Under the pieces are notes generated by a model, which did not search any database, had not been told where the DNA came from, and saw nothing but the letters and a program-made list of their open reading frames with translations. This document shows, one piece after another, positions 1 through 33,236 of a stretch of 33,445 nt of DNA (the first letter of the stretch is position 1; every line of letters starts with the position of its first letter). The translations under genes were made by a program, and so were the position numbers. This stretch comes from a virus. The DNA is taken from IMG/VR virus record IMGVR_UViG_3300023439_000003, positions 1-33,445 of that record; one strand, 5' to 3'.

Positions 1-409
1 GCACAAGAAGCTCGATGCCGTAGCGCATGAACATCCCACCACGACGGACGCCCTGCAGCGCGCTAACAGGGAGCAAGAGAGCAAAGGGTTTCCCAATGGC
101 ATAGCACCGCTCCAGAAATGCGTCCTTTTTCGAGTATGGCGGATTAGTTACTATGACATCCGCCTGTTTGTATTGGCTTGTATCAGTCAGGAAGTCATAA
201 TCATTATCTACACCTATGATTGCGTGCACCCCGAGCTGTTCGAGCGCTCGAACGATGTTCTTCGACTTGCCAGAAGTTGGCTCGAAGACGATACACCTTT
301 TGATGTAGGGAACGATCGGGCGTACCGCCACAAGCGGCGTGTAGCACTCATCAGCCTCTTGCGATCGACTTACCCGTAACAACATTGCAATGTTGCTACC
401 TGCCATCAT
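1..409 (-). CDS. N6-adenine DNA methyltransferase, N-terminal part (cut by window edge)
   Basis: An open frame of about 136 codons runs off the left edge. It starts at an ATG whose A is shared with the dUTPase stop (TGATG), so the two are translationally coupled. A second ATG follows immediately. Around residues 47-60 it reads FEPTSGKSKNIVRAL, resembling the S-adenosylmethionine-binding motif I, then IIGVDNDYDFL. About 35 residues later comes VIVTNPPYSKKDAFLE, which contains the NPPY catalytic motif of adenine-N6 methyltransferases. LLLPVSALQGVRRGG then runs to the edge. Known for the family: methylation of adenine in DNA. Inference: protection of phage DNA from restriction or regulation of its replication. 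The target-recognition part lies outside the window, so specificity is unknown. Confidence 0.85.
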   Translation of the reverse strand, partial: MMAGSNIAMLLRVSRSQEADECYTPLVAVRPIVPYIKRCIVFEPTSGKSKNIVRALEQLGVHAIIGVDNDYDFLTDTSQYKQADVIVTNPPYSKKDAFLERCYAIGKPFALLLPVSALQGVRRGGMFMRYGIELLV

Positions 410-903
410 CACACCCCCGTGCTGCCGAATCCCTTACAACCGCGCTCCGTGGCATTCAGCTCATCTACCTCATTCCACTCCACTCGCGTCACAGGCGCTA
501 CCACCAACTGCGCGATGCGCATGCCTGGCGTAACGATGTATGGCTCATCACCTAGATTGACGAGGATCACCTTAATCTCGCCGCGATAGTCGGCATCGAT
601 CGTGCCTGGCGCGTTGAGCACGGTAATCCCGTGCTTTGCCGCAAGTCCAGATCGCGGACGCACCTGTGCTTCGTAGCCTGGCGGAAGTTCTATTGCAATA
701 CCTGTCGGCACAATAGCTCGATGCAATAGACGGTCTCCTCTACGAACGCCGGCATGCATGAGCACATAGGCATCTTGACAGCCAGCGTCTGGGATCACAA
801 TCGACTCATCAATCGCCGCATGCAGATCCATCCCCGCCGCGCCAGCGGTGGCATAGCGAGGAAGGATGGCATTGTGGCGAACGCGCTTGATCTTTATCTG
901 CAT
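409..903 (-). CDS. dut: dUTPase (dUTP diphosphatase)
   Basis: This 164-residue trimeric-type dUTPase hydrolyses dUTP to dUMP and pyrophosphate, keeping uracil out of phage DNA and feeding dTTP synthesis. All five family motifs are visible: AGMDLHA (23-29), RPRSGLA (82-88), [13 protein letters not shown] (100-112, catalytic Asp), RIAQLVV (129-135) and the C-terminal glycine-rich arm [10 protein letters not shown] (154-163). The ATG at 903 is chosen because AGGAGG lies 5 nt upstream; an in-frame ATG seven codons earlier lacks such a site. The stretch between motifs 1 and 2 (about residues 36-64, with [20 protein letters not shown]) is longer than in compact bacterial enzymes. It is the gene just upstream of the methyltransferase and overlaps it by one base. 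Confidence 0.95.
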
Positions 904-950
904 TTGCTCCTCCTGATTCCGCATGCTCGATTCATGTGGCAGCTAGGCGC

Positions 951-984
951 GTGCCGCGAGGAATGCGATTGTTCCACGCGGCAC
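951..984 (-). other. Intercistronic hairpin before dut
   Basis: GTGCCGCG, a mismatch and GGAA face TTCC, a mismatch and CGCGGCAC across an 8-nt loop. The stem lies between the gene ending at 1006 and the dut start. No U-run follows on the minus strand, so an mRNA processing or stability element is more likely than a terminator. Confidence 0.6.
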
Positions 985-1005
985 AGCGCCAGCGCCATAT
1001 ATCAC

Positions 1006-1422
1006 TTACCATCCCCATCCTTCATTGTAGGGATCGACGTAGACGAAATTGTCGTCGTCGATCTGGATGGCAGCGCCCCTTGCCTCCTTCGCTGAGGGGT
1101 TGGCAAGGCTATGGACATACTTGACGAAGCGCTTGAACCATTGTCTGTCCGTGAAGGTGCACAGGTCATTGACGATCTCATCATATTTTCCTACCAGCTC
1201 GACATTCGCCAGACGCTTGAGAAGATGGTCTGGAAGATTTTCATAGTCTAGCTTTTTGAGATTTCCAATCTCCTCTTTGTAGAGTTTTGCGTGATAACGG
1301 ATCCAGCGCTGGACCCACTTTGATGGTTTATCGTCCGGGAAAAGATGCTCGGCAAGCTTCTCAGCAGCTTCTTTGCCGAGCTTTTCCTCGACAAGTTTGA
1401 TGTAGCGTTGACGGTTGGCCAT
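1006..1422 (-). CDS. Hypothetical protein, 138 aa
   Basis: I do not recognise this family. The product is charged and probably helical in its first 85 residues (KLVEEKLGKEAAEKLAEHLF, then KWVQRWIRYHAKLYKEE), rich in Lys, Glu and aromatic residues. It ends in an acidic and aromatic tail, DDDNFVYVDPYNEGWGW. There is no signal peptide or membrane segment. AAGGAGG lies 6 nt before the ATG, which supports translation. It follows the 50-residue gene and precedes dut in the same direction. The aromatic and acidic tail could be a protein-contact peptide, but nothing in the sequence fixes a function. Confidence 0.8.
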   Translation of the reverse strand: MANRQRYIKLVEEKLGKEAAEKLAEHLFPDDKPSKWVQRWIRYHAKLYKEEIGNLKKLDYENLPDHLLKRLANVELVGKYDEIVNDLCTFTDRQWFKRFVKYVHSLANPSAKEARGAAIQIDDDNFVYVDPYNEGWGW

Positions 1423-1450
1423 TGCTTCCTCCTTCTTTCTTTGTGTTTTT

Positions 1451-1465
1451 CCGCCTCAGCGGCGG
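1451..1465 (-). other. Hairpin overlapping a stop codon
   Basis: CCGCC and GGCGG pair around a 5-nt loop that contains the TGA of the 50-residue gene. A-rich sequence and the next ribosome site follow within about 28 nt on the minus strand, leaving no room for a promoter. It belongs to the series of intercistronic hairpins in this arm. Confidence 0.5.
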
Positions 1466-1608
1466 AGCTGAAGCCGTTGAGCTTTTAGCTCAACGAGCTT
1501 CTGCATCAGCGCAGCCATCTCTTGAGCTGCGACAATGGGATCGGAATCATGAATATACGGCACAACTACCTTGTACTGGCACTTAATGCTCATCGTATCA
1601 TTCGCCAC
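1456..1608 (-). CDS. Small hypothetical protein, 50 aa
   Basis: This small gene begins at GTG 1608, directly after the TAA of the upstream membrane-protein gene, with GGGAG about 6 nt ahead. An ATG five codons later is the alternative start. The product has a short N-terminal beta-like part (IKCQYKVVVPYIHDSD), then an amphipathic helix (VAAQEMAALMQKLVELKAQ) and an Arg-rich end. The helix has heptad-like hydrophobic spacing, so oligomerisation is plausible. Function is unknown. Support rests on the tight spacing, the ribosome site and the way it fills an otherwise empty gap in a packed operon. Confidence 0.6.
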   Translation of the reverse strand: MANDTMSIKCQYKVVVPYIHDSDPIVAAQEMAALMQKLVELKAQRLQLRR

Positions 1609-1797
1609 TTACTTCTCCCTTCCGAACATTTCTCCGATACAGAAATCAATAGTCGGAGCCAACACGGTAAAAACGATTGCATCTATCACTCTAGCAGCTG
1701 GATGCCAGTTTGCCGGATTTGGTTCCCATGCGACGAATGCCGTTACGGCGTATATCATTGGTATCAGAAACAACGAGTTTTTTACGATTTGATTCAT
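1609..1797 (-). CDS. Small membrane protein, 62 aa
   Basis: AGGAGGG lies 3 nt before the ATG. Residues about 8-24 (SLFLIPMIYAVTAFVAW) form one hydrophobic segment. A second hydrophobic stretch, VIDAIVFTVLAPTIDFCI, lies at about 38-55, giving a likely two-pass hairpin with a short NPANWHP turn. The stop is followed at once by the GTG of the next gene. Early-region membrane miniproteins in phages often interfere with host envelope functions or superinfection. That is inference only; no specific family is recognised. Confidence 0.7.
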   Translation of the reverse strand: MNQIVKNSLFLIPMIYAVTAFVAWEPNPANWHPAARVIDAIVFTVLAPTIDFCIGEMFGREK

Positions 1798-1805
1798 GTG
1801 CCCTC

Positions 1806-2027
1806 CTAGATTCTAAGTTGATCATAGAGCTTTATTAGCCGTTCTAGCTTAGTGTTGATCCTGGCAAGTCCAACGTCGCTGAGCTTGTTCCGTTTGTAAT
1901 AACTCGGGATGCGGGACAGGTAATACCTGTCCCTGAACCCAAGCAGCTCAGCTGCTTTTGCAGCCGTCATCCGCTTTCGGACTTCGCGATATAGCTCGTA
2001 GAACCTCGTTAACTCACGCATGTCCAT
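1806..2027 (-). CDS. Small helix-turn-helix-like protein, 73 aa
   Basis: The product is strongly basic and helical. Residues about 20-45 (MTAAKAAELLGF, then RDRYYLSRIPSYYKR) resemble a helix-turn-helix with a basic recognition helix. The rest (LARINTKLERLIKLYDQLRI) looks like a dimerisation helix. The ATG at 2027 has AGGAGG 6 nt upstream; an ATG two codons later is spaced less well. It overlaps the end of the upstream gene by 14 nt. A small DNA-binding regulator is plausible, but the match is by pattern only. Confidence 0.7.
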   Translation of the reverse strand: MDMRELTRFYELYREVRKRMTAAKAAELLGFRDRYYLSRIPSYYKRNKLSDVGLARINTKLERLIKLYDQLRI

Positions 2028-2328
2028 ACTGGACCTCCTGAAGCAGCTCTGATGCTGCTTTCAGCATTCGCATTGCCGCATCAAGCTTTGCATCAGCATC
2101 AGTTTCCACGGAGAAGCACTCAAGCACGCCAGACTCTATGTCTGCGTGCATGTGATCGACGAGATCGAGCAGACCCTTGGTTTGATAAGCGAGTGCGTCT
2201 GCCTCGATCGTGTGCACGTCGACGTAGCAACCCCGCATGATCATGTCGAGATACTGACCTGCCGCTTTCTTAAGTTCCTCGTCCTTTGCGTTGACGTACA
2301 TGTCATTCAGCCATTCTTTCAAATCCAT
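2014..2328 (-). CDS. Hypothetical acidic helical protein, 104 aa
   Basis: The start at 2328 is set by AAGGAGG 5 nt upstream; in-frame ATGs further upstream lie in the hairpin region. The product is acidic and mostly helical: MDLKEWLNDMYVNAKDEELK, then a cysteine/histidine-containing middle (MRGCYVDVHTIEADALAY), then LLDLVDHMHADIESGV and a C-terminal amphipathic helix. No domain is recognised. It lies between the Cas4-like nuclease and the HTH-like gene in one transcription unit, and its last 14 nt overlap the next gene. Confidence 0.75.
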   Translation of the reverse strand: MDLKEWLNDMYVNAKDEELKKAAGQYLDMIMRGCYVDVHTIEADALAYQTKGLLDLVDHMHADIESGVLECFSVETDADAKLDAAMRMLKAASELLQEVQYGHA

Positions 2329-2351
2329 GACCGCCTCCTTTTTCGAGTTAT

Positions 2352-2382
2352 GCCGCTGCCGGCAAGAGAGACTGGCAGCGGC
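2352..2382 (-). other. Hairpin at the end of the nuclease gene
   Basis: A perfect 9-bp stem (GCCGCTGCC with GGCAGCGGC, 13-nt loop) touches the stop codon of the nuclease gene. The next gene starts only 24 nt after it on the minus strand and no U-run follows. It therefore cannot be a complete terminator followed by a new promoter. Confidence 0.6.
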
Positions 2383-3215
2383 TAAACGCCGTTCTTGCAT
2401 TGCTGAGTGATTTCCTTGACGTTTGGCTCTTTCACGACTTTGACCAGGAACACGGGGCCCTTGCTGTAAAGGAACACCCGTGGGCCAAAGCCGTTGTTTG
2501 CATCAGCCCAGCAGTGCCACTTGTAAGCGCAGTAGCTGCACTCAGTTGGCAACTTCATGTTGCCGGACTTGCCTTCTGGAACAGGCTCATATGGCCTTTC
2601 CGGTGGATCATCTTGTTGGACGATTTGCTTCAGCTCATTGACGATCTCCTTTGCATTCGGGAGATACTCGTATTTCGCCTCAACGACGGCCACGTGTCCA
2701 AGCTGCTTGTCCATGATGATCCATCCTGCAGGCTCCATGCCCAATGCTTCTGCGTAAGCCGCAAGCTGGGCATAGTAGCCAAACGGATCATCACGGTGCA
2801 GCAGACCGCGGACGAACTTCTCGAATGACCTGCTGCTGACGGACTTGATGTCATAGAGCTGGCCATCGATGAGGCAATCGATGTGGCCCTTTATTCCATT
2901 CAGCTCAACCTCCTTCTGACAGTCAGTCACTTCGTGGCCTGACAGTTCAATCAGGCCAATCAGCAGTTGTTCAATGATGTCACCAAAGAGGAACTTGAGC
3001 CTGACCGCAGGATGAAGCGGCTCAGGCTCGTATCCCTTGGCGTGGTACCAGATGTAGCGCTTACAGCGCCCGATCATGGACAGACGGAGTTCCTTGCTCC
3101 GTTTGAACTCGCCAATGCGAGTTGCGATAACCTTTGCGATCCGTTCTGCCAGACGGGAGATCCACTCCTCGTCTGGCTCTTTGTCCAATGCGTCGTATAT
3201 GTCGAAGTTCAGCAT
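2382..3215 (-). CDS. Cas4/RecB-like PD-(D/E)XK nuclease with probable Fe-S cluster
   Basis: This 277-residue protein carries the signature of the RecB/Cas4 nuclease superfamily. It has an upstream acidic helix around E82, GHIDC (D113) followed by LYDIKS (D122 and K124 as the metal site), and Q150-x3-Y154 (QLAAY). One cysteine near the N-terminus (C51, IGRCKRY) and three near the C-terminus (C226, C229, C235; CSYCAYKWHC) reproduce the four-cysteine pattern that holds a 4Fe-4S cluster in Cas4 and AddB. Known role: exonuclease on DNA ends. Inference: phage recombination, replication or degradation of host DNA. Its ATG directly follows the TAA of the OB-like gene, with AAGGAG upstream. A CRISPR adaptation role is unlikely without cas1 or cas2 here. 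Confidence 0.85.
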   Translation of the reverse strand: MLNFDIYDALDKEPDEEWISRLAERIAKVIATRIGEFKRSKELRLSMIGRCKRYIWYHAKGYEPEPLHPAVRLKFLFGDIIEQLLIGLIELSGHEVTDCQKEVELNGIKGHIDCLIDGQLYDIKSVSSRSFEKFVRGLLHRDDPFGYYAQLAAYAEALGMEPAGWIIMDKQLGHVAVVEAKYEYLPNAKEIVNELKQIVQQDDPPERPYEPVPEGKSGNMKLPTECSYCAYKWHCWADANNGFGPRVFLYSKGPVFLVKVVKEPNVKEITQQCKNGV

Positions 3216-3722
3216 TTAGAACTCCTTTTTCACTTTGATGTTCCCGATTTCTTCGATCAGCTTCTGGTGATTGAAGTTTCCGTTGTTGACGTAGTCCTCC
3301 ATCGTCTTGACGATGAGAGCGAAGGCCTCGATCTTCTCGGCATAACCGGTAAACGGTTCGCCATCGAGAACCTTCGTAAGCCCGAGAGACTCCATAGCCT
3401 CAGCAGCGGTTCGAAGGATACTCAAGCGAGTGATTTGAGTATCTCGATTTGAGCTAGACTGTTGCTGCTGCTGGGAGCCACCTCCATTGAAGACTTTTTG
3501 CGTTGCACTGTCGCTTTCAAGCGTCTTGATCGATTCGATCCGGTTGTATTTCTCCGGATCATAGACGACTTCAACCTTGTCGCCTTTCTTGACCGTGAGC
3601 TTCTTGAAGCCCCAGTCAAGCCATGTTCCGTTAACTTTGATGCGATACGCCGGCTTCACGCCAAACTTGGTTTGGACCTCTTTCGCCGAAGTTGCTTCAA
3701 CGACACCACGGATGATTTCCAT
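3216..3722 (-). CDS. OB-like protein with Gln/Ser linker, possible ssDNA-binding protein
   Basis: The start is ATG 3722, with AAGGAGG 5 nt upstream; a GTG one codon earlier is too close to that site. The first 70 residues are beta-rich with alternating hydrophobic and basic residues (YRIKVNGTWLDWGFKKLTVK, then KGDKVEVVYD), consistent with an OB fold. A low-complexity Gln/Ser/Gly linker follows at about 84-93 (GGGSQQQQQSSS), then a helical C-terminal domain that may oligomerise. The order OB fold, flexible linker and adjacency to a RecB-like nuclease fits a DNA-binding replication or recombination partner. The usual acidic C-terminal tip of SSB is missing: it ends KVKKEF. Assignment is tentative. 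Confidence 0.7.
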   Translation of the reverse strand: MEIIRGVVEATSAKEVQTKFGVKPAYRIKVNGTWLDWGFKKLTVKKGDKVEVVYDPEKYNRIESIKTLESDSATQKVFNGGGSQQQQQSSSNRDTQITRLSILRTAAEAMESLGLTKVLDGEPFTGYAEKIEAFALIVKTMEDYVNNGNFNHQKLIEEIGNIKVKKEF

Positions 3723-3766
3723 CACGCCCTCCTTTTGAGATAAGATCTATGATTGTTAGTGCCGAA

Positions 3767-3794
3767 AGTATAGCGATTGTGTAAGGAGCTGCAA
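3767..3794 (-). promoter_or_regulatory. Possible sigma70-type promoter for the OB-like and nuclease genes
   Basis: On the minus strand TTGCAG and TATACT are separated by 16 nt and lie 45 nt upstream of the ATG at 3722. This is one of the few intergenic gaps in the arm with room for a promoter. The -35 match is weak. Confidence 0.3.
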
Positions 3795-3827
3795 GCAGCA
3801 GCCCGATGAAACAGGCTGCTGCGAGCA
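3790..3827 (-). other. Long imperfect hairpin
   Basis: GCAGCAGCC and GGCTGCTGC pair perfectly across a 10-nt loop. The stem is extended by CTGC/GCAG after a 2-nt mismatch. It lies 6 nt downstream of the gene ending at 3833. On the minus strand it is followed by TTGCAGCTCC, not a clean U-run, so termination would be weak. Confidence 0.6.
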
Positions 3828-3832
3828 GTTGA

Positions 3833-4015
3833 TCAGTTAAGCGCTTTACTGACATCCCTTGGAATCTCCGTCATCTCATTGCCTTCTAGCATCACGCCAA
3901 GGCGGATACAGGTAACGCCTGCGTCGATGAGCTGTTCGGGATTCATGTTCGTTTGCACTCGATACTCGCCTTCGTGGCTTTCGAGAAGGATGTATGGAGT
4001 CTTCGGTTCATTCAT
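3833..4015 (-). CDS. Small hypothetical protein, 60 aa
   Basis: The start at 4015 is chosen because AAGGAGG lies 7 nt upstream and the ATG overlaps the TGA of the previous gene (ATGA). The product begins MNEPKTPYILLESHEGEYRV, has a beta-like centre (VTCIRLGVML) and a helical, acidic end. No family is recognised. It is the last gene before the hairpin at 3790-3827. Confidence 0.7.
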   Translation of the reverse strand: MNEPKTPYILLESHEGEYRVQTNMNPEQLIDAGVTCIRLGVMLEGNEMTEIPRDVSKALN

Positions 4016-4221
4016 TTTTCTTCCTCCTTGAGTTTGATGATAGTCGCATTGTCTGCGTCGAACGTGCTCAGGTATTGCCTGAGACATTCACCGCAGAAGT
4101 AGGCGACATCTTTGCCAGCGATGGCAAACCAGTTGGCATCTTTGACGTAGATTGCATACTCGGCCTTCGTTTTGACGCCGGCCATTGCGCAGTATTCTGC
4201 GCAGTATTCGCATTCAGGCAT
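4012..4221 (-). CDS. Zinc-ribbon miniprotein, 69 aa
   Basis: Cysteines at positions 4, 7 and 11 (CEYCAEYC) and a second pair, CGEC, at about 43-46 form a probable zinc-binding knuckle pair around a compact beta core (YAIYVKDANWFAIAGKD). The C-terminus is acidic and lysine-rich. AAGGAGG precedes the ATG by 6 nt. It overlaps its neighbours on both sides and directly follows another small zinc-ribbon gene. Such miniproteins in phage early regions commonly bind nucleic acid or host polymerase. The exact partner cannot be read from the sequence. Confidence 0.75.
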   Translation of the reverse strand: MPECEYCAEYCAMAGVKTKAEYAIYVKDANWFAIAGKDVAYFCGECLRQYLSTFDADNATIIKLKEEEK

Positions 4222-4405
4222 TGCTGACCTCCTTTTTCACTAGCCTCACAAACTCGAAGTCTGCTGACCATTCTTTCTCGCACGCTTTGCATGCATAGAA
4301 GGCAACTATTAAGTCGCCTCGTATTGGATAGGCTTCAAGAAACTCGACTGCTATCTGGTTGCAGAACGGACAGCGTCCTGTCAGAAGAAGCTCACGATCG
4401 TTCAT
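4214..4405 (-). CDS. Zinc-ribbon miniprotein, 63 aa
   Basis: Two CxxC knuckles, CPFC at about 12-15 and CKAC at about 39-42, are separated by 23 residues of beta-like sequence (IAVEFLEAYPIRGDLIVAFY). This is the layout of a rubredoxin-like or ribbon zinc finger. The tail is basic and hydrophobic. AGGAGG lies 5 nt before the ATG. The last 8 nt overlap the next zinc-ribbon gene, so the two are translated together and may act as a pair. The function is unknown. Confidence 0.75.
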   Translation of the reverse strand: MNDRELLLTGRCPFCNQIAVEFLEAYPIRGDLIVAFYACKACEKEWSADFEFVRLVKKEVSNA

Positions 4406-4423
4406 GCATGCCTCCTTTTTGGA

Positions 4424-4457
4424 AGATAAAGCCGGCGGCCACGAAGAAACCGCCGGC
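4424..4457 (-). terminator. Terminator-like hairpin
   Basis: GCCGGCGG and CCGCCGGC pair around an 11-nt loop and are followed on the minus strand by TTTATCTT. The next start codon is only 26 nt downstream, so read-through (attenuation) or RNA processing is more likely than complete termination. Confidence 0.6.
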
Positions 4458-4463
4458 TGATGA

Positions 4464-4640
4464 TCAGTCGTAATGACCAGTCAGATACAGCTCCGCCTCC
4501 CACATTAGCTCTCGGATCTTTGCCACGTCAGAGAGCCTGATCTTGACGCTCTCGTTTCCGACACGGAACATCAGAGATCGATGTGGATCGACATAGATCT
4601 TGACCGTTCGTCCGTCGATTTCACGGCTCCAGCGACGCAT
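4464..4640 (-). CDS. Small hypothetical protein, 58 aa
   Basis: The start at 4640 has AAGGAGG 5 nt upstream, formed partly by the stop of the previous gene. The product begins MRRWSREIDGRTVKIYVD and is a compact beta-rich module (LMFRVGNESVKIRLSDV) followed by one helix (IRELMWEAELYLTG). It is basic at the N-terminus and acidic later. No family is recognised. A terminator-like hairpin follows 6 nt after the stop. Confidence 0.7.
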   Translation of the reverse strand: MRRWSREIDGRTVKIYVDPHRSLMFRVGNESVKIRLSDVAKIRELMWEAELYLTGHYD

Positions 4641-4650
4641 TACCACCTCC

Positions 4651-4917
4651 TTACGTGTATGCCACGATGATTCCGCCGTTGAACTCAGCAACGACTACGA
4701 AGCCATTCTCGCCGAGATCATCCTTGGCTTCTTCTTCGCTTCCGTATTCAGCGAAATCGCATCGGAAAGCGATTGGATCGAAGTTGACAGGCTCACCTGT
4801 GCTCTCGCTGTATTCTTCTAGGTATTCAAACAGCGCGCGAGCGCCTTCACGGGAAAACCCGTGCTTCGTCATGACATCAACGAATCGTTCAAGATAGACT
4901 TCTTCAATGATTGGCAT
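4651..4917 (-). CDS. Hypothetical acidic protein, 88 aa
   Basis: The start at 4917 has AAGGAGG 6 nt upstream. The product starts MPIIEEVYLERFVDVMTKHG, is strongly acidic in the centre (EYLEEYSESTGEPVNFD, then EEEAKDDLGE) and ends in a hydrophobic beta strand pair (GFVVVAEFNGGIIVAYT). The high negative charge is reminiscent of phage DNA-mimic inhibitors, but the structure cannot be judged from sequence. It is coupled to the next gene through a TAA lying just ahead of its ribosome site. Confidence 0.75.
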   Translation of the reverse strand: MPIIEEVYLERFVDVMTKHGFSREGARALFEYLEEYSESTGEPVNFDPIAFRCDFAEYGSEEEAKDDLGENGFVVVAEFNGGIIVAYT

Positions 4918-4930
4918 GATCCACCTCCTT

Positions 4931-5134
4931 TTACCAGGCTTTTCCATGGTTCTTTTTGGTTCCCTTTGCCGTATTCATTGTCCACCAGTCAGAAAGCGCA
5001 GCTCGCATAAATCGAACGCGATCAAACCGCGGATAACTTGCCCCGAATGAATCCGCGAATGCTTCGACAAGATGAGATGGAGCGTTGTTGTCCTTGAGAA
5101 TACGAGCAATGAGTTCGAAGTCCTTCTTCGTCAT
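4931..5134 (-). CDS. Small hypothetical protein, 67 aa
   Basis: AAAGGAGG lies 6 nt before the ATG. The product has a helical N-terminal half (MTKKDFELIARILKDNNAP, then HLVEAFADSFGA) and a basic aromatic C-terminal half (RVRFMRAALSDWW, then KGTKKNHGKAW). The first part resembles a short helical bundle of the kind seen in small phage regulators; the tail may bind nucleic acid. No family is recognised. Confidence 0.75.
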   Translation of the reverse strand: MTKKDFELIARILKDNNAPSHLVEAFADSFGASYPRFDRVRFMRAALSDWWTMNTAKGTKKNHGKAW

Positions 5135-5160
5135 ACTCGCCTCCTTTGAATATGTTTGGT

Positions 5161-5547
5161 TTACATAAACAACGTTAGCGGCTCCATTTTGACTTCATTC
5201 ACATAGTCAAATCCACTAACTCTGCGATCCTGCAGGAACACCCGAAGGGCCGTAACGACGAAGTCGTCAAGGTGACCCTCGTCCCAAGAATCGCGGGCCT
5301 CGAAGACCTCATCCTCATAGGCCTGAAAGTGATCAGACACGATTTCACGCCACACATCTATTCGGTTCGTTGACCAAATCACATTACCCATCAGATCTTT
5401 GATATAGAGTTCCTCGCCGTAACGCGTAGAACCCCACGACATATCCTCGGGCAGAACGAAGTACTCGTTCAGATAGTCCACGAGATCACGGAAATCTACG
5501 CTATAGACTCGTTCCCAAGCTTCATCAGACGAAATATTACAGCTCAT
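5161..5547 (-). CDS. Hypothetical acidic protein, 128 aa
   Basis: AAAGGAGG lies 6 nt upstream of the ATG. The protein is acidic throughout (many Asp and Glu, for example AYEDEVFEARDSWDEGHLDD) and has conserved-looking aromatic positions. The predicted order is helix (SDEAWERVYSVDFRDLVDYL), beta hairpin (YGEELYIKDLMGNVIW) and a helical C-terminal half. There is no membrane segment, signal or metal site. It is larger than the neighbouring miniproteins but in the same transcription unit. No family is recognised. Confidence 0.75.
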   Translation of the reverse strand: MSCNISSDEAWERVYSVDFRDLVDYLNEYFVLPEDMSWGSTRYGEELYIKDLMGNVIWSTNRIDVWREIVSDHFQAYEDEVFEARDSWDEGHLDDFVVTALRVFLQDRRVSGFDYVNEVKMEPLTLFM

Positions 5548-5613
5548 GATTTGCCTCCTTTGAATGAAATGAAGTGCGCAGCCCCGAGAGAGAAGGCCGC
5601 GCCGATAGATCCA

Positions 5614-5856
5614 TTACCTGATCTTCTTTCCATCACCTCTTTGGGCCCATTCGGTTTCGAGAATCCAATCCGACGGGAGATAACCATCATCGTCCCAAAG
5701 CTCTTTACTCGCTTTGGCGATGATGACGTCTGGCCTACGGACGGACTCGACTGCGATGTCCATCGGAATGCCAAAGTGGCGAGCATAGTCTTCGATCGCC
5801 TCGTCTGCAGTTCCGCCGACTCCGAGAACGATGTTTGCGCTCGCAATGATAATCAT
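5614..5856 (-). CDS. Hypothetical protein, 80 aa
   Basis: AAAGGAGG lies 7 nt before the ATG, which overlaps the TGA of the preceding gene. The product starts MIIIASANIVLGVGGTADEA, a beta-strand and Gly-rich turn, then helix AIEDYARHFG, a second strand (RPDVIIAKASKEL) and an acidic, Trp-containing end. This resembles small stress- or DUF-type alpha/beta proteins with a GTADEAIEDYARHFG-like helix. No named family is assigned. About 65 nt separate it from the next gene. Confidence 0.75.
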   Translation of the reverse strand: MIIIASANIVLGVGGTADEAIEDYARHFGIPMDIAVESVRRPDVIIAKASKELWDDDGYLPSDWILETEWAQRGDGKKIR

Positions 5857-6020
5857 TTGACCACCTCCTTTGCGTATTTGATCACAGCCTCTAGGGCCGA
5901 GATTGATGACTTAGTGATTCTGATCACTTCATCTCCGATTTTGATATAGCCATGTCTGGCTTTGTTTGGCGGATAAACTTCGATTGGTGTTTCGTCAGCA
6001 TGCACGATCAAAACTTCCAT
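5853..6020 (-). CDS. Small hypothetical protein, 55 aa
   Basis: The ATG at 6020 is preceded by AGGAGG 6 nt upstream, and the TGA overlaps the next ATG by 3 nt. The translation starts MEVLIVHADETPIEVYPPNK, continues with a strand-turn (HGYIKIGDEVIRI) and ends in a helix (SSISALEAVIKYAKEVVK). The repeated small beta-plus-helix design, also seen in the 5614, 6482 and 7166 products, suggests a set of related early miniproteins, although no alignment could be run. Confidence 0.7.
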   Translation of the reverse strand: MEVLIVHADETPIEVYPPNKARHGYIKIGDEVIRITKSSISALEAVIKYAKEVVK

Positions 6021-6047
6021 ACTCGCCTCCTAGCATCGAAAGATATT

Positions 6048-6084
6048 GAAAGAAAGCAGCCGCCACACGATGGAAGGCGGCTGC
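6048..6084 (-). terminator. Terminator-like hairpin after the Csx16-like gene
   Basis: GCAGCCGCC and GGCGGCTGC pair perfectly around an 11-nt loop and are followed on the minus strand by TTTCTTTC. The next gene starts 36 nt later, with no obvious promoter between. Confidence 0.65.
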
Positions 6085-6103
6085 CATGCCGCACGTTCAT
6101 ACT

Positions 6104-6469
6104 TCAAACTAATGTCCTTTCTAAGCCTGCAATCTCCCTGAATGCCATTGGTGTTAACGCGTGCGAAATCTGCACGCGAACTTCGCGGATTTCCGCACCT
6201 GCCTTATCCATCTGCTCAGGCGTCAGTTCTTTTCCACGCCATTCTCGCGGCAAGCGCGGAAGCTCTACCGCAAAGAACCGAGCGCCACGAGCATTGATCT
6301 TTGCAATCGCCCATGGCGGGAGAACGCCGATGATAACGTCTCCTTCGTTCAGGCCATTGAAGAAATCATCGTTAAGGTGCTCAACAACCTCGCCTCCAAG
6401 GATGAACCCGCGTTGAACGAGCCAGTCCTTGAGACCATTATGACGGGACACAATGTAGATGCGCTTCAT
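6104..6469 (-). CDS. Csx16-family protein (VVA1548 type), candidate ring nuclease and anti-CRISPR
   Basis: The 121-residue product matches what I know of the Csx16/VVA1548 family over its length. It has SRHNG (8-12), GLKDWLVQRGF, a conserved HL (31-32), GDVIIGVLP (43-51), AIAKINARGARFF (54-66), then LPRLPREWRGKEL (70-82) and a following GA (91-92). Known from the family: it occurs beside type III CRISPR loci and has been reported to cleave cyclic tetra-adenylate, as a ring nuclease. Inference: in a phage, with no cas gene in the window, it would switch off type III cyclic-oligoadenylate signalling, as the viral ring nuclease AcrIII-1 does. AAGGAGG lies 5 nt before the ATG. A terminator-like hairpin follows. 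The substrate is untested. Confidence 0.85.
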   Translation of the reverse strand: MKRIYIVSRHNGLKDWLVQRGFILGGEVVEHLNDDFFNGLNEGDVIIGVLPPWAIAKINARGARFFAVELPRLPREWRGKELTPEQMDKAGAEIREVRVQISHALTPMAFREIAGLERTLV

Positions 6470-6481
6470 GCTTACCTCCTT

Positions 6482-6685
6482 TCAGTTGTTTGCTGCTTCA
6501 ATCAGTGCTTTGGCAAGTTCTTTTGCGTTTTCTTGCGTCAGGATCATGGTAAACGTCCTGACGACTTTGCCATCAAACGTTTTGTCTCCCGCAATAACGA
6601 TACGGGAACCGGAACGGATAAGGCGAATACGCCTGCCGTCTTTCATTTTCTCATTCTCAATATCAACGATGATTTCATAGCCCAT
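6482..6685 (-). CDS. Small hypothetical protein, 67 aa
   Basis: AAGGAGG lies upstream of the ATG, which shares one base with the TAA of the preceding gene. The product is a beta-rich core (MGYEIIVDIENEKMKDGRRI, then LIRSGSRIVIAGDKTFDG, then VVRTFTMILT) followed by a C-terminal helix (ENAKELAKALIEAANN). The final helix resembles those in the 7166 and 4464 products. It is directly upstream of the Csx16-like gene with 12 nt between, so the two are probably co-translated. The function is unknown. Confidence 0.75.
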   Translation of the reverse strand: MGYEIIVDIENEKMKDGRRIRLIRSGSRIVIAGDKTFDGKVVRTFTMILTQENAKELAKALIEAANN

Positions 6686-6924
6686 TATTCTACCTCCTTT
6701 CCATGAAAGAGTTTTGCGACGCGCAGAAGATGCTCAAAGTTATACCCATGGCGCGTCAGCGCCATCCAAAAGAGATAAGACTGACTTTCCGCATATTCGC
6801 GGCTGCTCAGAACTAACTTTAAGTAGTAACCTTCCTCCTCGTCTGCCAGTCGCTTACGAACAACTGGCCCGAGGAACATCCAAACTAGCCTCACGTCTTC
6901 TTTCGAGATGCGAGGAGGGATCAT
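6685..6924 (-). CDS. Hypothetical protein, 79 aa
   Basis: GAGGAGG lies 6 nt before the ATG, which overlaps the TGA of the preceding gene. The product is basic and aromatic: MIPPRISKEDVRLVWMFLGP, then RKRLADEEEGYYLKLVLSSR, then YLFWMALTRHGYNFEHLLRV. The pattern suggests a small helical bundle. No membrane segment is long enough to count. No family is recognised. It sits two genes upstream of the Csx16-like gene. Confidence 0.75.
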   Translation of the reverse strand: MIPPRISKEDVRLVWMFLGPVVRKRLADEEEGYYLKLVLSSREYAESQSYLFWMALTRHGYNFEHLLRVAKLFHGKEVE

Positions 6925-7100
6925 TGGCCCCTCCTCTTCGGGATATAAAACTCCCGAAAGATGAGTTCACCATTGCAGTAATACACTGCAACGACAATGT
7001 TGTTTTCCAAGTCAATATCGATAACATCACAATCACGGCCTTGTAAGTATCTGGTAGAGATATAGTCTTCTAACTTAGTAAGATTAGAATACCGAATCAT
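6921..7100 (-). CDS. Small hypothetical protein, 59 aa
   Basis: The ATG at 7100 has AAGGAGG 6 nt upstream, and the TGA overlaps the next ATG by 3 nt. The product starts MIRYSNLTKLEDYISTRYLQ, contains two cysteines (GRDCDVIDIDLE and YYCNGELIF) and is otherwise a beta meander. A basic end (IPKRRGQ) is partly dictated by the ribosome site of the next gene. The function is unknown. The tight coupling and ribosome site are the evidence for a real gene. Confidence 0.7.
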   Translation of the reverse strand: MIRYSNLTKLEDYISTRYLQGRDCDVIDIDLENNIVVAVYYCNGELIFREFYIPKRRGQ

Positions 7101-7120
7101 ATTCGCCTCCTTTTTGTTGG

Positions 7121-7157
7121 TATAGAAAGCCAGCGCCCCGCGAGAAGAGGCGCTGGC
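7121..7157 (-). terminator. Terminator-like hairpin
   Basis: GCCAGCGCC and GGCGCTGGC pair perfectly around an 11-nt loop and are followed on the minus strand by TTTCTATA. The next start codon is only 28 nt from the stem. Confidence 0.65.
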
Positions 7158-7165
7158 GAAAGTGT

Positions 7166-7372
7166 TCAGTCGATAATGCCATCAAGAAAATCCTCTGCAG
7201 TATCGATGAGCTTGCGAAGTTTACGAATGTGATGTTTATTCAGCTTCGATACGATTACGGTTTCTCCTGGCCACGGCCCGTAGCCATCGAAGATCGAGAG
7301 ATAAACATTGTCGTTATCAATGGAAACTTTAAACTCATTGAGTCCGATGTATGTGATTGCTTCCCTTTTCAC
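7166..7372 (-). CDS. Small hypothetical protein, 68 aa
   Basis: The start is GTG 7372, with AGGAGG 6 nt upstream; this ribosome site overlaps the stop of the preceding gene. The product is a beta-rich core (ITYIGLNEFKVSIDNDNVYL, then GETVIVSKL) followed by a long basic-to-acidic helix (HHIRKLRKLIDTAEDFLDG). It has the same layout as the 6482 and 4464 products: strands, then one C-terminal helix. That makes distant paralogy possible. The function is unknown. Confidence 0.75.
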   Translation of the reverse strand: MKREAITYIGLNEFKVSIDNDNVYLSIFDGYGPWPGETVIVSKLNKHHIRKLRKLIDTAEDFLDGIID

Positions 7373-7382
7373 TATTCACCTC

Positions 7383-7670
7383 CTAGTCCTTGGTATACAT
7401 CTCAATCTCGCCAGCTGTCTCGCTCAACGCGATCAGCCAACGGCGAAGGGCCCCAACGCTCGGAAGTCCAAGATCGTCAAGGGGGATCTTGACTTTTTCT
7501 TGCTTTGTGCTATCAAGGATATTGATGACAATTTTCTCGTTCGCCTCTTCAGACTTTCCTTCAACAATATCAATGATCAAGTTGTTGCCATCCACGTTAA
7601 TCAAGATAGTAATCGGGATATATTCATTCGTTCCATATGGGAAAATCTTAAGCTCTAGCGCATACTTCAT
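7383..7670 (-). CDS. Hypothetical protein, 95 aa
   Basis: GAGGAGG lies before the ATG. The product is strongly beta-rich in the first two thirds (MKYALELKIFPYG, then YIPITILINVDGNNLIIDIV, then KIVINILD) and ends in helices (LPSVGALRRWLIALSETAGE). It may be a larger member of the strand-then-helix miniprotein set of this arm. No catalytic or metal motif is visible. It follows the gap holding the hairpin at 7699-7731. Confidence 0.75.
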   Translation of the reverse strand: MKYALELKIFPYGTNEYIPITILINVDGNNLIIDIVEGKSEEANEKIVINILDSTKQEKVKIPLDDLGLPSVGALRRWLIALSETAGEIEMYTKD

Positions 7671-7698
7671 TTTGTCCTCCTCAGGTATGGGTTTCGAG

Positions 7699-7731
7699 GG
7701 CCGCCGCCCCCACGGGGAGCGGGCGGCGGCC
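7699..7731 (-). other. Strong GC hairpin
   Basis: GGCCGCCGCCC and GGGCGGCGGCC form an 11-bp all-GC stem with an 11-nt loop. No U-run follows on the minus strand. It lies between the terminator at 7771-7797 and the start at 7670, and could be an RNA-processing or pausing element. Confidence 0.55.
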
Positions 7732-7770
7732 GGGATACAATGACTTTCTCACCTCATGGGGCCTGGGTTA

Positions 7771-7797
7771 AAAGGAAAGCGGGCCTTATAGGCCCGC
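7771..7797 (-). terminator. Rho-independent terminator
   Basis: GCGGGCC and GGCCCGC pair around a 5-nt loop, followed on the minus strand by TTTCCTTTT. The stop codon of the first leftward gene lies in the loop, an unusually compact arrangement. Confidence 0.7.
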
Positions 7798-8106
7798 CTC
7801 CTCATCTTCGCTGCTGTCTTCAGCGCCGGCCAAGAGCGCCAGCGCGTCGCGTCGAATGTCTGGCTTGAAGACAATCACCGTCCAGAGGTTCTTTTCCGGC
7901 TTTCGCCGGATGACGATCGAAACGTCGTTGCCAGCTGCAACCCACTGATCGCCTTTCCGCGAAAGCGGAAACTCCTTCTTGTTAACCACAGCAACCAGCT
8001 TGTCGCCTTCTCGGCGAAGGCCGAACTGCAAGCGCTTCTTCGACTGCGACTCAACCAGTTTCGCATATCCGTTGGAGAGAATGTATCCAGAAGCGAAAAG
8101 CGCCAT
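7786..8106 (-). CDS. Hypothetical protein with acidic tail, 106 aa (first leftward gene)
   Basis: AAGGAGG lies before the ATG. Residues 1-85 are beta-rich and basic (YAKLVESQSKKRLQFGLRRE, then DKLVAVVNKKEFPLSRKG, then VSIVIRRKPEKNLWTVIVFK). The last 20 residues turn acidic (GAEDSSEDEEAG). A basic beta barrel with an acidic tail is the layout of many single-strand nucleic-acid-binding proteins, in which the tail recruits partners; here that is inference. It is the first gene leftward of the non-coding region, followed at once by a terminator, so it may be the most highly expressed early gene. Confidence 0.75.
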   Translation of the reverse strand: MALFASGYILSNGYAKLVESQSKKRLQFGLRREGDKLVAVVNKKEFPLSRKGDQWVAAGNDVSIVIRRKPEKNLWTVIVFKPDIRRDALALLAGAEDSSEDEEAGL

Positions 8107-8139
8107 CTTTTACCTCCTTTTTAATGTTGTTTTTTAGAG

Positions 8140-8170
8140 GGGCGCGCGCCCCCATGCCCCGCGCGCGCCC
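8140..8170. other. GC-only hairpin
   Basis: GGGCGCGCGC and GCGCGCGCCC pair across an 11-nt loop, just upstream of the first leftward gene. On the plus strand a T-run follows after 7 nt, so weak termination of rightward transcription is possible; on the minus strand it lies in the 5' leader. Confidence 0.5.
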
Positions 8171-8490
8171 AAGGACTGTTTTTTGAGAAAGAGTTTTTAA
8201 GAAAGTGAAATGAAAAAAAGAAAAGGGGCGAAAACGGAAGAAAAATGCAACCAAGACGGCATAAGCAACCAGATTGGAACGAAGAGCAACGACAAAACGG
8301 CTCGGAAGCGAGACGGTAGCACGGAAGAGCAGAAACGCAGGACTGAGCACGAGAACAGCAGAGAGAAGACCACGGAAAAGAGCAAGCTGTGGAGAGGAAC
8401 GGAGGAGTGTGGAGAGGAGAGGTGTAGAGAGGGGCGAAGCCCCTCCCCTCTCCCTCTCAGCATCCCGTTCAGCCCTGCTGACAGGCTGTC

Positions 8491-8541
8491 CAGTCAGCGC
8501 TGACTGTTCGGCTGAGGAGCTTGCACAGACTGCGCAGTCTG
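8491..8541. promoter_or_regulatory. Two perfect 16-bp palindromes, candidate operators
   Basis: CAGTCAGCGCTGACTG (8491-8506) and CAGACTGCGCAGTCTG (8526-8541) are perfect palindromes of the shared form CAGnCnGC-GCnGnCTG. Their centres are 35 bp apart. A third short palindrome, CCCCTAGGGG, lies at 8551-8560. Spaced, similar palindromes are typical of binding sites for a dimeric regulator or initiator. Confidence 0.55.
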
Positions 8542-8834
8542 AGCTGACTGCCCCTAGGGGGAGGGTGTCTCGTTGGGATGGGGACTTTGGGGTTTTATTC
8601 CATCCCTTCTCTGAACGGGGTTCCTAAGGCCATCTAAGTTACCGTCGTTTCGTTGGTTTTCCTTTACTGACTGAGTGTTTTATTATCTGGTTATGTCAAC
8701 TGACTGTTTTTGGTGCGGGTTGTTTTTGCGGTCTGTGCTTACTGGGGTTTACTTAGGGGCCGTCGTAAACCCTTACTCTTGGTCCCCTTACCCTTGATTA
8801 CCTACCCTTGATTCCCTTAGTTACTTACTGACTG
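8500..8834. repeat. CTGACTG iterons
   Basis: Five direct copies of CTGACTG start at 8500, 8544, 8667, 8700 and 8828. One inverted copy lies at 8491-8497 inside the first palindrome. Three of the five are preceded by A. This density in 340 bp resembles replication iterons. Confidence 0.5.
8789..8813. repeat. Tandem TACCCTTGATT repeat
   Basis: TACCCTTGATT occurs at 8789-8799 and 8803-8813, a 14-bp period. Degenerate relatives flank it: CCCTTACTCTTGG upstream and CCCTTAGTTACTTACTG downstream. Confidence 0.5.
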
Positions 8835-8956
8835 CTATGGGATCAGGATCTTACTTACTAACTACCGTGGTTAGTTATTTTTGGTTAGTAAGGGAAAACA
8901 CTCACTACCAATCTACCGTAGTAGTAGGTTCATCCCCCTAGATCCTGATCCCATAG
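8835..8956. repeat. Nested inverted repeat (17-bp outer arms)
   Basis: The outer arms CTATGGGATCAGGATCT (8835-8851) and AGATCCTGATCCCATAG (8940-8956) are perfect complements. Inside, CTTACTAAC (8854-8862) and GTTAGTAAG (8884-8892) form a second stem, and CTACCGTAG lies further right. The 122-nt element could form a cruciform or a large RNA stem-loop. Confidence 0.65.
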
Positions 8957-9148
8957 ATCTCCCCTGTAGGGGATAGGGGATAATAGGGGATAGGGGATTA
9001 TAAGGGGAAAGGGGAAAGAAGGGGAAAGGGGAAGAAATGGGCAAGACGACAGCTACCGGCATATTCGTTGCCGTTTCAACGATTCCTGTTCTGTCAGCCG
9101 GATTGAGGACGGAAGAAACCCAGATGAACCGCTGAGGTTCATCCCCCT
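8926..9148. repeat. AGGTTCATCCCCCT direct repeat with hairpin
   Basis: The 14-mer AGGTTCATCCCCCT occurs at 8926-8939 and again at 9135-9148. The second copy forms the right arm of a hairpin, GATGAACC-gctga-GGTTCATC, at 9123-9143. GCGGG-gataa-CCCGC follows at 9173-9187. Confidence 0.5.
8969..9031 (+). repeat. Eight GGGG tracts, potential double G-quadruplex
   Basis: GGGG tracts start at 8969, 8976, 8986, 8993, 9004, 9011, 9021 and 9028. The loops are 3, 6, 3, then 7, then 3, 6, 3 nt. This makes two four-tract units with identical loop spacing and a 35-bp period, each able to form a four-tetrad quadruplex on the plus strand. Confidence 0.7.
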
Positions 9149-9391
9149 GAGTCCTTCACCCATGAGTCTCCAGCGGGGATAACCCGCAGGCGCAACCCTG
9201 CCACCTGATCCTGACCTTCGCAACCCATGCCATCCTAGGCTGTCAGCTCAGCATATGGGCAACGGTCAGCCTCAGGAATGCCTCTCAGAGGCTCTCAGAG
9301 CGTCTCTAGGCCAAGTTTCAGCTCTTCCGAGTATGGTAGGTGCTGAGAGCATCCGAAAACGCGATACGGACGCTCTCAGCGCCTCTGAGGG

Positions 9392-9416
9392 CCAAATCCC
9401 CTATAAGGGGATTTGG
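9392..9416. other. Hairpin between the duplicated units
   Basis: CCAAATCCCCT and AGGGGATTTGG form an 11-bp perfect stem with a 3-nt loop. It is followed on the plus strand by GTTCTGAGG, so it is not a typical terminator. Confidence 0.5.
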
Positions 9417-9465
9417 GTTCTGAGGCTCTCAGAGCGTCTCTGTTGCGGGTTTGATGCCTTCCGAG

Positions 9466-9474
9466 TGGTATGAT
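9466..9474 (+). promoter_or_regulatory. Possible extended -10 promoter for the late genes
   Basis: TGGTATGAT matches an extended -10 (TGn-TATnAT) about 70 nt upstream of the small terminase start, inside the core of the second duplicated unit. There is no good -35 at normal spacing, so the call is weak. Confidence 0.25.
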
Positions 9475-9544
9475 ACCTTCCGCACCGGAAACGCAGCTCA
9501 GAGACGCTCTCATCGCCTCTGAGAACCATCTGAGGGGGTGACTG

Positions 9545-10006
9545 ATGGCCGACATCGTGAAGGTCACGAAGATTGGGCGGCGTGAGCTGTCTGAGAAGGA
9601 CAAGAAGTTCCTCGAGGAATACCTCATCTCCGGTTCGCTCAAGCAGGCTGCGATTGCCATCGGCTACGAGAAGAACCCGAACCAGATGGGGTATTACTTC
9701 AAGAAAAAACTCTATCCGTTCATTCTTGCCAACATGAGGGAGTTTATTTCAAAGATGGCTCCGAATGCGTTGACTACCATCTACGAACTGGCAATGAACT
9801 GCGAAGATCCAAAGATCAGGTTCCAGGCTGCAAAGGACATCCTCGACAGAGCTGGGTTCAAGCCAGCAACTGAGCACAAGATCAGCATTGAGCAGATGAG
9901 CGACGAAGAGATCGATCAAGAGTTGAGAAGATTGCTCAAGAAGGCGAATGTTGTCGACGTCCAGATCGTTGACGATGGAGGGAACGATGCCGATTCAACT
10001 GGGTGA
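9545..10006 (+). CDS. terS: Terminase small subunit
   Basis: This 153-residue product selects phage DNA for packaging and loads the large subunit. Residues about 17-45 (LSEKDKKFLEEYLISGSLKQ, then AAIAIGYEKN) form the N-terminal helix-turn-helix typical of small terminases. The middle, APNALTTIYELAMNC and IRFQAAKDILDRAGF, is the usual oligomerisation and linker segment. An acidic C-terminal part follows (EEIDQELRRL, then VDDGGND), where such proteins contact TerL. GAGGGGG precedes the ATG. It is the first gene of the rightward block, and its last 20 nt overlap the start of the next gene. Confidence 0.8.
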   Translation: MADIVKVTKIGRRELSEKDKKFLEEYLISGSLKQAAIAIGYEKNPNQMGYYFKKKLYPFILANMREFISKMAPNALTTIYELAMNCEDPKIRFQAAKDILDRAGFKPATEHKISIEQMSDEEIDQELRRLLKKANVVDVQIVDDGGNDADSTG

Positions 10007-31009: not shown

Positions 31010-31360
31010 TTATTCTGAGCCATCTGAGAGGCTCTGAGAGTAACATTGTAGGATAGTCTGTAGAGCAGAGCCTGATTTGATGTGGTTCGGAGCGAATCTT
31101 AGGACTTTCCATCCGAGCAGGACTGCTGAGTTGTATTTGTCGCAGTCCTTGACGAACCCTGATCCTCTGTTATGGCGTCCGTATATCCAGATCCCTCCTT
31201 CGACTTCAATGGCAATCTTTGCTGATGGGATTGCGAAGTCGAATCGCCACCTGCGTTCTGGGTGAAACTTGTATTCCTCTTCGAACGGAATACCAGCAGC
31301 TTTGAGCTGCATCGCGAGCTGCTGTTCAAGCCTGCTCTTACTTGACTGGGTCCGTGTCAT
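31010..31360 (-). CDS. PD-(D/E)XK endonuclease, DUF559/Vsr-like
   Basis: The start at 31360 has GGGGAG 5 nt upstream; longer in-frame extensions lie inside the helicase gene. The 116-residue product shows the compact nuclease core. It has SRLEQQLAMQLKAAGIPFEE, RRWRFDFAIPSAKIAIEVEG (catalytic Asp in FDF and Glu/Glu in EVEGG), a conserved GRHNRGSGF loop and a final strand GWKVLRFAPNHI. Phages carry such enzymes for resolving branched DNA or cutting host DNA; the target is unknown. Its start overlaps the helicase gene by 23 nt. It is the last gene of this minus-strand block. Confidence 0.8.
   Translation of the reverse strand: MTRTQSSKSRLEQQLAMQLKAAGIPFEEEYKFHPERRWRFDFAIPSAKIAIEVEGGIWIYGRHNRGSGFVKDCDKYNSAVLLGWKVLRFAPNHIKSGSALQTILQCYSQSLSDGSE
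31022..31040. repeat. Copy of the CTCTCAGAG repeat at the convergent junction
   Basis: On the minus strand this reads CTCTCAGAGCCTCTCAGAT. The control region has CTCTCAGAGGCTCTCAGAG (9282-9300), a near match. It lies within the last codons of the nuclease gene, opposite the end of the late block. Confidence 0.45.
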
Positions 31361-32516
31361 AGTATCTCCCCTTTGGGGCATCGATGTAGACGGTAAACCT
31401 GCCATGGCGGAGTTCTTCGATCGTGTTCTCATCCCCTGAGAGCTTGTTCTTGACGATTGATACGTATCTCTTGTTGTTCGGCTCTTCGTCTCGTCCAATG
31501 AGGATGATTGCGTCAGCCTCTTTCTGCTTCGCGACTCTGCTTCCTGCAAGCATGTTCATGTTCAACCATCTGCGCCCCTCAGCTTCTCCTGTCAACTGAG
31601 TCGTCGTGATCACAGGGCAGTATTCCTTAGCCAAAGACCTTGCCCATTGGTAGAGCTTGGCATACATGATGTCCTCTCGTTCGCCTTCGAATCCATAGAC
31701 CTTATCGAGCATGTCGAACACGACGAGATCAGGGCGAACTTCGTCGATGATCGCCTCAATCTCGTTGACCCTGTTCGCTTCAGAGAACTTAATCTTTTCC
31801 AGGAACCTCGGGTAAAACTCGGCATATCGAAGCTGATGCTCCATGATCGTCTGTCGAGTAACTCCGAATGCGCTCTGGAACACTCTGAAGATGACCTTTT
31901 CAGTTGCCTCTTCGTTGTTGAACCAGATGATCTTACGGCATTCCTTCATCATGAAGGAAACCTCGCTTGCAAGCAGAGTCGTCTTCCCAGTCTCAACACG
32001 AGCGCCGATGACGATGAAGTCTCCCTTTCTGATCGGGCCCAGTGACCTGTTCAGGCAATGCAACCGCCAATGAAGCCCGTTTTCTGCTGAGACGTAACCA
32101 AGGACGTCGTCAAACGACGGCTGAACGAACGCCTCCTCAGCCGGAACAGTCAGCGCCTCTTTGATAGCGAACGTCACTTCTTGAAGCGTTCTCTTGCCGT
32201 CAATGACGTCGTAACAGAGAGCAGAGATCTTCTCCGCAGCAACGACTTCGAGAAGCGCCTTGAAGGCATCTCCGTTGTATTTCTTCCCTGCCTCAATGTA
32301 TTCAATGAACTTCTCTCGAAAGTTCTTCTGATAACCAACCTTGATGAACTCCTCAAAGCCAGACTCGTGTTGCGAGTAGAACGTCTCAGCAACCTTCACG
32401 AACTCATACAGCTCCCTCGGAAGGGAAAGCCCGTAAAGGTTCTTCGCGACGGAAAGAAAGACGTCACGCCCCTCAATGGCGCAACGCGCAACGAGCGCCT
32501 CAACGTTGCTGAACAT
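31338..32516 (-). CDS. DnaB-like replicative helicase
   Basis: This 392-residue RecA-fold helicase is a hexameric type that unwinds DNA at the fork. Visible motifs are Walker A GARVETGKT (171-179), the catalytic glutamate region WFNNEEAT (198-205), Walker B DLVVFD (263-268), TTQLTG (305-310) and the DnaB-like SRVAKQKEADAIILI (326-340). The N-terminal 150 residues are helical and carry no primase motif. GGAGG lies 6 nt before the ATG, overlapping the stop of the upstream zinc-ribbon gene. It is in one operon with the nuclease at 31010-31360. A primase was not found in the window. Confidence 0.9.
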   Translation of the reverse strand: MFSNVEALVARCAIEGRDVFLSVAKNLYGLSLPRELYEFVKVAETFYSQHESGFEEFIKVGYQKNFREKFIEYIEAGKKYNGDAFKALLEVVAAEKISALCYDVIDGKRTLQEVTFAIKEALTVPAEEAFVQPSFDDVLGYVSAENGLHWRLHCLNRSLGPIRKGDFIVIGARVETGKTTLLASEVSFMMKECRKIIWFNNEEATEKVIFRVFQSAFGVTRQTIMEHQLRYAEFYPRFLEKIKFSEANRVNEIEAIIDEVRPDLVVFDMLDKVYGFEGEREDIMYAKLYQWARSLAKEYCPVITTTQLTGEAEGRRWLNMNMLAGSRVAKQKEADAIILIGRDEEPNNKRYVSIVKNKLSGDENTIEELRHGRFTVYIDAPKGRYYDTDPVK

Positions 32517-33026: not shown

Positions 33027-33236
33027 CTACTTCCGGTGCATCTTCTTCAGCGTCCTTGCCAGAACAACTCGTTTCAGCAACTTCTTGTTGCCGGTTTTCC
33101 TTGCGTGCGCCTCAAGCCTCTTGAGCGCAGAGGCAGAGAGCTTCTGATCGCCCTTGATAATCCCGAGCCGTTTTGCCGTTGCTCTAAGAGCGCCTGGCTT
33201 TTTGATTGCCCGTTGAATCCACTTTCTGTCGCTCAT
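33027..33236 (-). CDS. Small basic phage protein, 69 aa
   Basis: GGGAGGG lies before the ATG. The product is very basic (KPGALRATAKRLGIIKGDQK, then KRLEAHARKTGNKKLLKRVV) and helical. The layout (IQRAIKKPGALRATAKRLG, then a short linker and a basic helix) recalls a widespread small phage protein of unknown function found near replication genes. It overlaps the preceding gene by 53 nt. It is probably nucleic-acid-binding. Confidence 0.7.
   Translation of the reverse strand: MSDRKWIQRAIKKPGALRATAKRLGIIKGDQKLSASALKRLEAHARKTGNKKLLKRVVLARTLKKMHRK

Follow-up and report, generated by a model that had tools for sequence, protein, structure and literature searches.

Several virus-encoded ring nucleases act against type III CRISPR signalling. 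AcrIII-1 (viral Crn2, DUF1874) removes the second messenger cyclic tetra-adenylate (cA4), and both its activity and its anti-CRISPR effect have been shown experimentally. AcrIII-2 (a viral SAVED ring nuclease, PMC12751052) and phage Crn4b (PMC12830947) are likewise viral and directed against type III signalling, and they differ from Csx16 in fold and family. In case of Csx16, Hoikkala et al. (2025) found that one member of the family degrades cA4 completely, at 100-fold substrate excess, and that it leaves cA6 uncut, being cA4-specific even at 10 uM protein (PMC12409355). The same paper reports Csx16 in two phage genomes (PMC12409355), very probably those of the archaeal viruses Drs3 and PhiF3. 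The kind of protein discussed here is therefore already known, Csx16 being a published cA4 ring nuclease that has been reported in phage genomes. New are another virus with Csx16 and a wider spread of the family in viruses and plasmids than published.

The window, that is the whole stretch of DNA analysed, is an entire IMG/VR virus record of 33445 bases. A minus-strand open reading frame at 6104-6469 (csx16), with an ATG start and 121 codons for amino acids, encodes what is by sequence a bona fide Csx16, a firm family assignment. Profile searches with the product hit Pfam PF09652 (Cas_VVA1548; E 3.2e-24, 85.4 bits, profile positions 1-90 of 91) and NCBIfam TIGR02620 (Csx16; E 1e-15, 57.7 bits, profile positions 1-92 of 93), far above the curated cut-offs of 25 and 46.35 bits, respectively. 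The PADLOC Csx16 profile matches as well (E 5.8e-24), and the PADLOC matches include models of CARF effectors with a fused Csx16 domain. These searches bear out the first-pass annotation, which had assigned the family from four landmarks, all of which were found in the product: SRHNG at residues 8-12, GDVIIGVLP at 43-51, INARGARFF at 58-66 and WRGKEL at 77-82. A PHROG search matched no family, and DUF1874, the AcrIII-1/Crn2 domain, is absent, with PF09652 as the sole Pfam match at E values up to 1. Further, all family-invariant residues (R9, H10, G48, L50, P51, A56, R78 and G79) are kept when the protein is aligned with 30 homologues. The ribosome site of the gene is a perfect AAAGGAGGT, and its third-position GC of 0.549 lies close to the mean of the other minus-strand (early) genes (0.553, sd 0.072). 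Reading 6104-6469 on the plus strand was rejected, as stops occur all along, so that the gene is assigned to the minus strand.

Cellular Csx16 proteins from type III loci share with the window copy the family (in three profile libraries), the invariant residues and the size class. Identity to relatives is only about 30-44%, with Allochromatium vinosum plasmid pALVIN01 (44%) and Aeromonas media pMC64A (33%) as cellular examples. While the cellular proteins adjoin cas genes and CARF effectors, the window copy is alone, diverged and marked by its own 3-residue insert and a C-terminal extension. Drs3 and PhiF3 resemble the window in setting, both being tailed viruses that lack cas genes and carry Csx16 on its own; they differ in their methanogenic archaeal hosts, in belonging to the Anaerodiviridae and in Csx16 sequence (about 33% identity, with 77% of the query covered).

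Proximity to a type III locus is the usual context of Csx16 and is not part of the sequence definition of the family. We found cas or CARF neighbours (Cas1, Cas2, Cas6, Cmr, Csm6 or CARF) at 62 of 69 cellular Csx16 loci and at none of nine viral loci, the window included, a strong contrast that is imperfectly matched because many cellular loci have longer flanks than the viral loci. Such neighbours were likewise absent from 31 further viral loci (flanks of about 6 kb, some shorter). The window gene thus departs from the usual location of the family, as viral members generally do, and it is virus-encoded and away from any type III locus, as expected of a viral ring nuclease. The initial claim that the window has neither a cas gene nor a CRISPR array holds for array-like direct repeats, of which none were found, and for type III cas genes. 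It needs qualifying for a Cas4-type PD-(D/E)XK exonuclease encoded at 2382-3215 on the minus strand (phrog_1990, E 7e-41). All five near-complete siblings carry this exonuclease gene, at 48-55% identity, and it is a conserved phage gene outside any CRISPR locus.

An AlphaFold2 model based on the 30-homologue alignment (mean pLDDT 93.6) shows alternating strands and helices and a C-terminal helix, and confidently predicts a small Rossmann-like (CARF-like) alpha/beta fold. Using VIA-align, the model matched Sis0455 (Z 4.9) and Sso2081 (Z 4.5), both of them ring nucleases, and also the CARF proteins Can1 and Cad1. The ring nuclease matches are weak and tied with unrelated Rossmann folds, and we rejected them as proof of function because these unrelated folds score equally. 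Foldseek searches of the PDB and of viral models returned nothing at E < 0.001, and a sequence search for a solved Csx16 structure found none. The modeled fold is consistent with a ring nuclease without proving one.

The remainder of the genome is that of a phage with podovirus-like structural genes. The plus strand encodes the small and large terminase, a portal or head-tail adaptor, the major head protein and an endolysin, and the closest relatives of the large terminase, at about 47-50% identity, come from Pelagibacter and Vibrio phages. Between about 8.1 kb and 0.4 kb the minus strand carries small early-type genes, the Cas4-type exonuclease and a dUTPase, and a DnaB-like helicase gene sits at the right end. 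We observed a 23-bp element, AGAGCAACGACAAAACGGCTCGG, as an inverted pair at 8283-8305 and 33163-33185 (96% complementary), one copy preceding the early operon and the other, near the opposite end, preceding the helicase block; it is possibly a control or replication site. An ORF for a Vsr/DUF559-type endonuclease (31010-31549, minus strand; phrog_503, E 3e-43) has a possible start that overlaps the end of the DnaB-like gene. The host is probably a Gram-negative bacterium. No tRNA genes, which might have served as a host clue, were found in the window, and a search for TerL relatives in 100 genomes of the Hydrogenophilaceae, a single proteobacterial family, gave no match and settles nothing on the host. 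In matched genes, the IVYWREL fraction is 0.386-0.398 for the window phage versus 0.354-0.378 for siblings (G001, G002, G004, G006, G007, L006 and L008), which weakly suggests that the host lives in a warmer habitat.

Sibling phages (L004-L009 and L029) were retrieved via the large terminase at 60-68% identity. Packaging, capsid and tail genes are common to them and the window phage, while their early regions, apart from the Cas4-type exonuclease, are unrelated to that of the window. None of the siblings, including the five near-complete ones, has csx16, and no known ring nuclease family turned up when 75 ORFs predicted in their early regions were searched against Pfam. Because the five near-complete siblings are without it, csx16 is an accessory gene, gained or lost recently on the scale of these phages.

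Csx16 appears to be the last of four genes in a unit running from 7100 to 6104 on the minus strand, bounded by two GC-rich, T-tailed, terminator-like hairpins. The upstream one (7129-7157, minus strand; 11-bp stem, z-score -3.6) splits the unit from the preceding early genes, and the downstream one (6058-6086, minus strand), directly behind csx16, has a 9-10 bp GC-rich stem and the T-rich tail CTTTCTTTC, with a fold z-score of only -1.8. Similar hairpins at 5576-5602 and 4430-4458 on the same strand cut the remaining early region into short blocks, and the hairpins at block ends are possibly read-through terminators or RNA processing sites. Upstream of csx16 lie minus-strand ORFs of 67 (6482-6685), 79 (6685-6924) and 59 (6921-7100) residues, of which the 59-residue ORF is the first of the unit. 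The 67- and 79-residue ORFs had been proposed as possible partners of Csx16. They are real, with strong ribosome sites, yet neither they nor the 59-residue ORF matched a significant family in Pfam, NCBIfam, PADLOC or PHROG. Searches for phage homologues of the 67-residue ORF, and for phage or viral homologues of the 79-residue ORF, detected none. Naming these genes as partners is unsupported speculation. A scan for sigma-70 promoters on the minus strand of positions 1-9600 recognised no site, and the early expression of csx16 is therefore read from gene order.

We consider it probable that the window Csx16 is a viral ring nuclease which removes cA4 and so counters a host type III CRISPR system in the manner of AcrIII-1. 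By this hypothesis the two share their action; they belong to different protein families, and the window protein is known here from its sequence and a model. The anti-type III function suggested in the first-pass annotation is favoured by family, free-standing setting and absence from siblings, while the cA4 removal is predicted from published biochemistry, because the tested Csx16 is a cA4 ring nuclease (PMC12409355). Cleavage of cA6 is not expected, since the tested protein did not cut it (PMC12409355). A counter-defence role would fit a gene that is free-standing, without cas neighbours and absent from sibling phages. In the proposed mechanism, the phage would produce free-standing Csx16 from its presumably early minus-strand region while the host type III complex senses phage RNA and its Cas10 makes cA4, which would turn on CARF effectors. 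Csx16, presumably a homodimer with a pocket lined by the S/T-R-H loop and the R-G-x-E-L loop, would bind cA4 and convert it into linear products, and the effectors would remain off. Activity of the window copy, a host whose type III system uses cA4 and a growth benefit for the phage are what we infer in proposing this. Counting against the ring nuclease interpretation are the low identity to relatives, the long branch, the insert, the C-terminal extension and the weak structural match to ring nucleases.

Some of these features can be read differently. The protein might bind cA4 tightly and sequester it without efficient cleavage, as Csx15 does, which we think unlikely. Csx15 neutralises a cA4 effector though its cleavage is very slow (PMC13148439), and since catalytic residues are not established in the Csx16 literature examined, the conserved residues kept in the window protein cannot separate binding from cutting. 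However, the tested Csx16 fully cut a 100-fold excess of cA4 (PMC12409355), and type III systems make so much messenger that, as has been argued, a virus would gain little from sponging (PMC13148439). The long branch (1.9-2.0 changes per column), the unique insert and the C-terminal helix might instead point to a Csx16 fold redirected to another small ligand or defence, e.g. the cyclic nucleotides of CBASS-type systems. We regard this as highly improbable, as the protein keeps every family-invariant residue and the cA4 specificity of the tested Csx16 persisted even at 10 uM (PMC12409355).

The absence of csx16 from all sibling phages, a recent gain or loss on that scale, would also be expected if the gene were a passenger from a host type III locus, captured recently or in decay, with no present function in the phage. 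The state of the gene argues against this: its frame is intact, its ribosome site is optimal and its third-position GC is like that of other early genes. In addition, no other type III cas gene came along, and in the collections searched the cellular relatives reached no more than about 44% identity. Such functionless cargo is thus very unlikely, and removal of cA4 by an active ring nuclease is the explanation we prefer.

Relatives on other mobile elements were found with alignment queries, which were required because the window protein, used as a single sequence, retrieved no relative from viral contigs. Alignment-based scans recovered about 37 IMG/VR contigs with Csx16 besides the window (L032-L037 and L121-L155). 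A genome scan with a viral-only alignment gave no confirmed relative, and a second scan with plasmid Csx16 succeeded. Three plasmids carry the gene, Deinococcus pDEIPR02, Allomeiothermus silvanus pMESIL02 and an archaeal plasmid (L169, L170 and L171), with no annotated cas genes near their copies.

Many viral Csx16 proteins are of a short form, having 4-5 residues fewer between the mid-protein helix and strand. Maximum-likelihood analysis places the short forms, to which most of the viral contig and plasmid copies belong, in a clade of 33 rows, all from viruses or Deinococcus/Meiothermus plasmids, with support of 90/93 with the plasmids and 99/92 for the 31 viral rows without them. A short-form model run against 398 Pseudomonadota genomes found long forms only, in 12 genomes, nine of which had cas or CARF matches within the short loci examined. 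The short form as a mobile-element clade is a lead, other cellular phyla being hardly sampled. The window Csx16 is of the long form and falls, on a branch of about 1.9-2.0 changes per column, outside the short-form clade and without a firm place; an earlier tree joined it weakly to viral copies (94/48), and later trees did not.

About 40 viral records with Csx16 and no cas genes nearby now stand against the two phage genomes reported, and a confirmed cA4 ring nuclease family is placed in the early region of a tailed phage as an accessory gene. This abundance on mobile elements is a by-product of the analysis and more interesting than the window gene itself. The evidence leaves us evenly divided on whether Csx16 is a widespread mobile-element counter-defence family rather than one whose main job is housekeeping as an off-switch at CRISPR loci, comprising at least one mobile clade (the short form, with all sampled members on viruses or plasmids that lack cas genes) and separate viral branches (the window phage and the methanogen viruses). 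If so, Csx16 would join AcrIII-1 among the major families of viral ring nucleases. If active, these proteins would be a recurrent viral and plasmid means of silencing type III CRISPR signalling, and surveys that treat Csx16 as a cellular regulator would overlook its viral and plasmid side. On pMESIL02 (5998-8013, plus strand) the Csx16 domain forms the N-terminus of a 671-residue protein, and the other 580 residues could be placed in no clear Pfam family, with a weak match to DUF7639; by eye, residues of about 110-200 appear to hold a second, diverged copy of the Csx16 domain.
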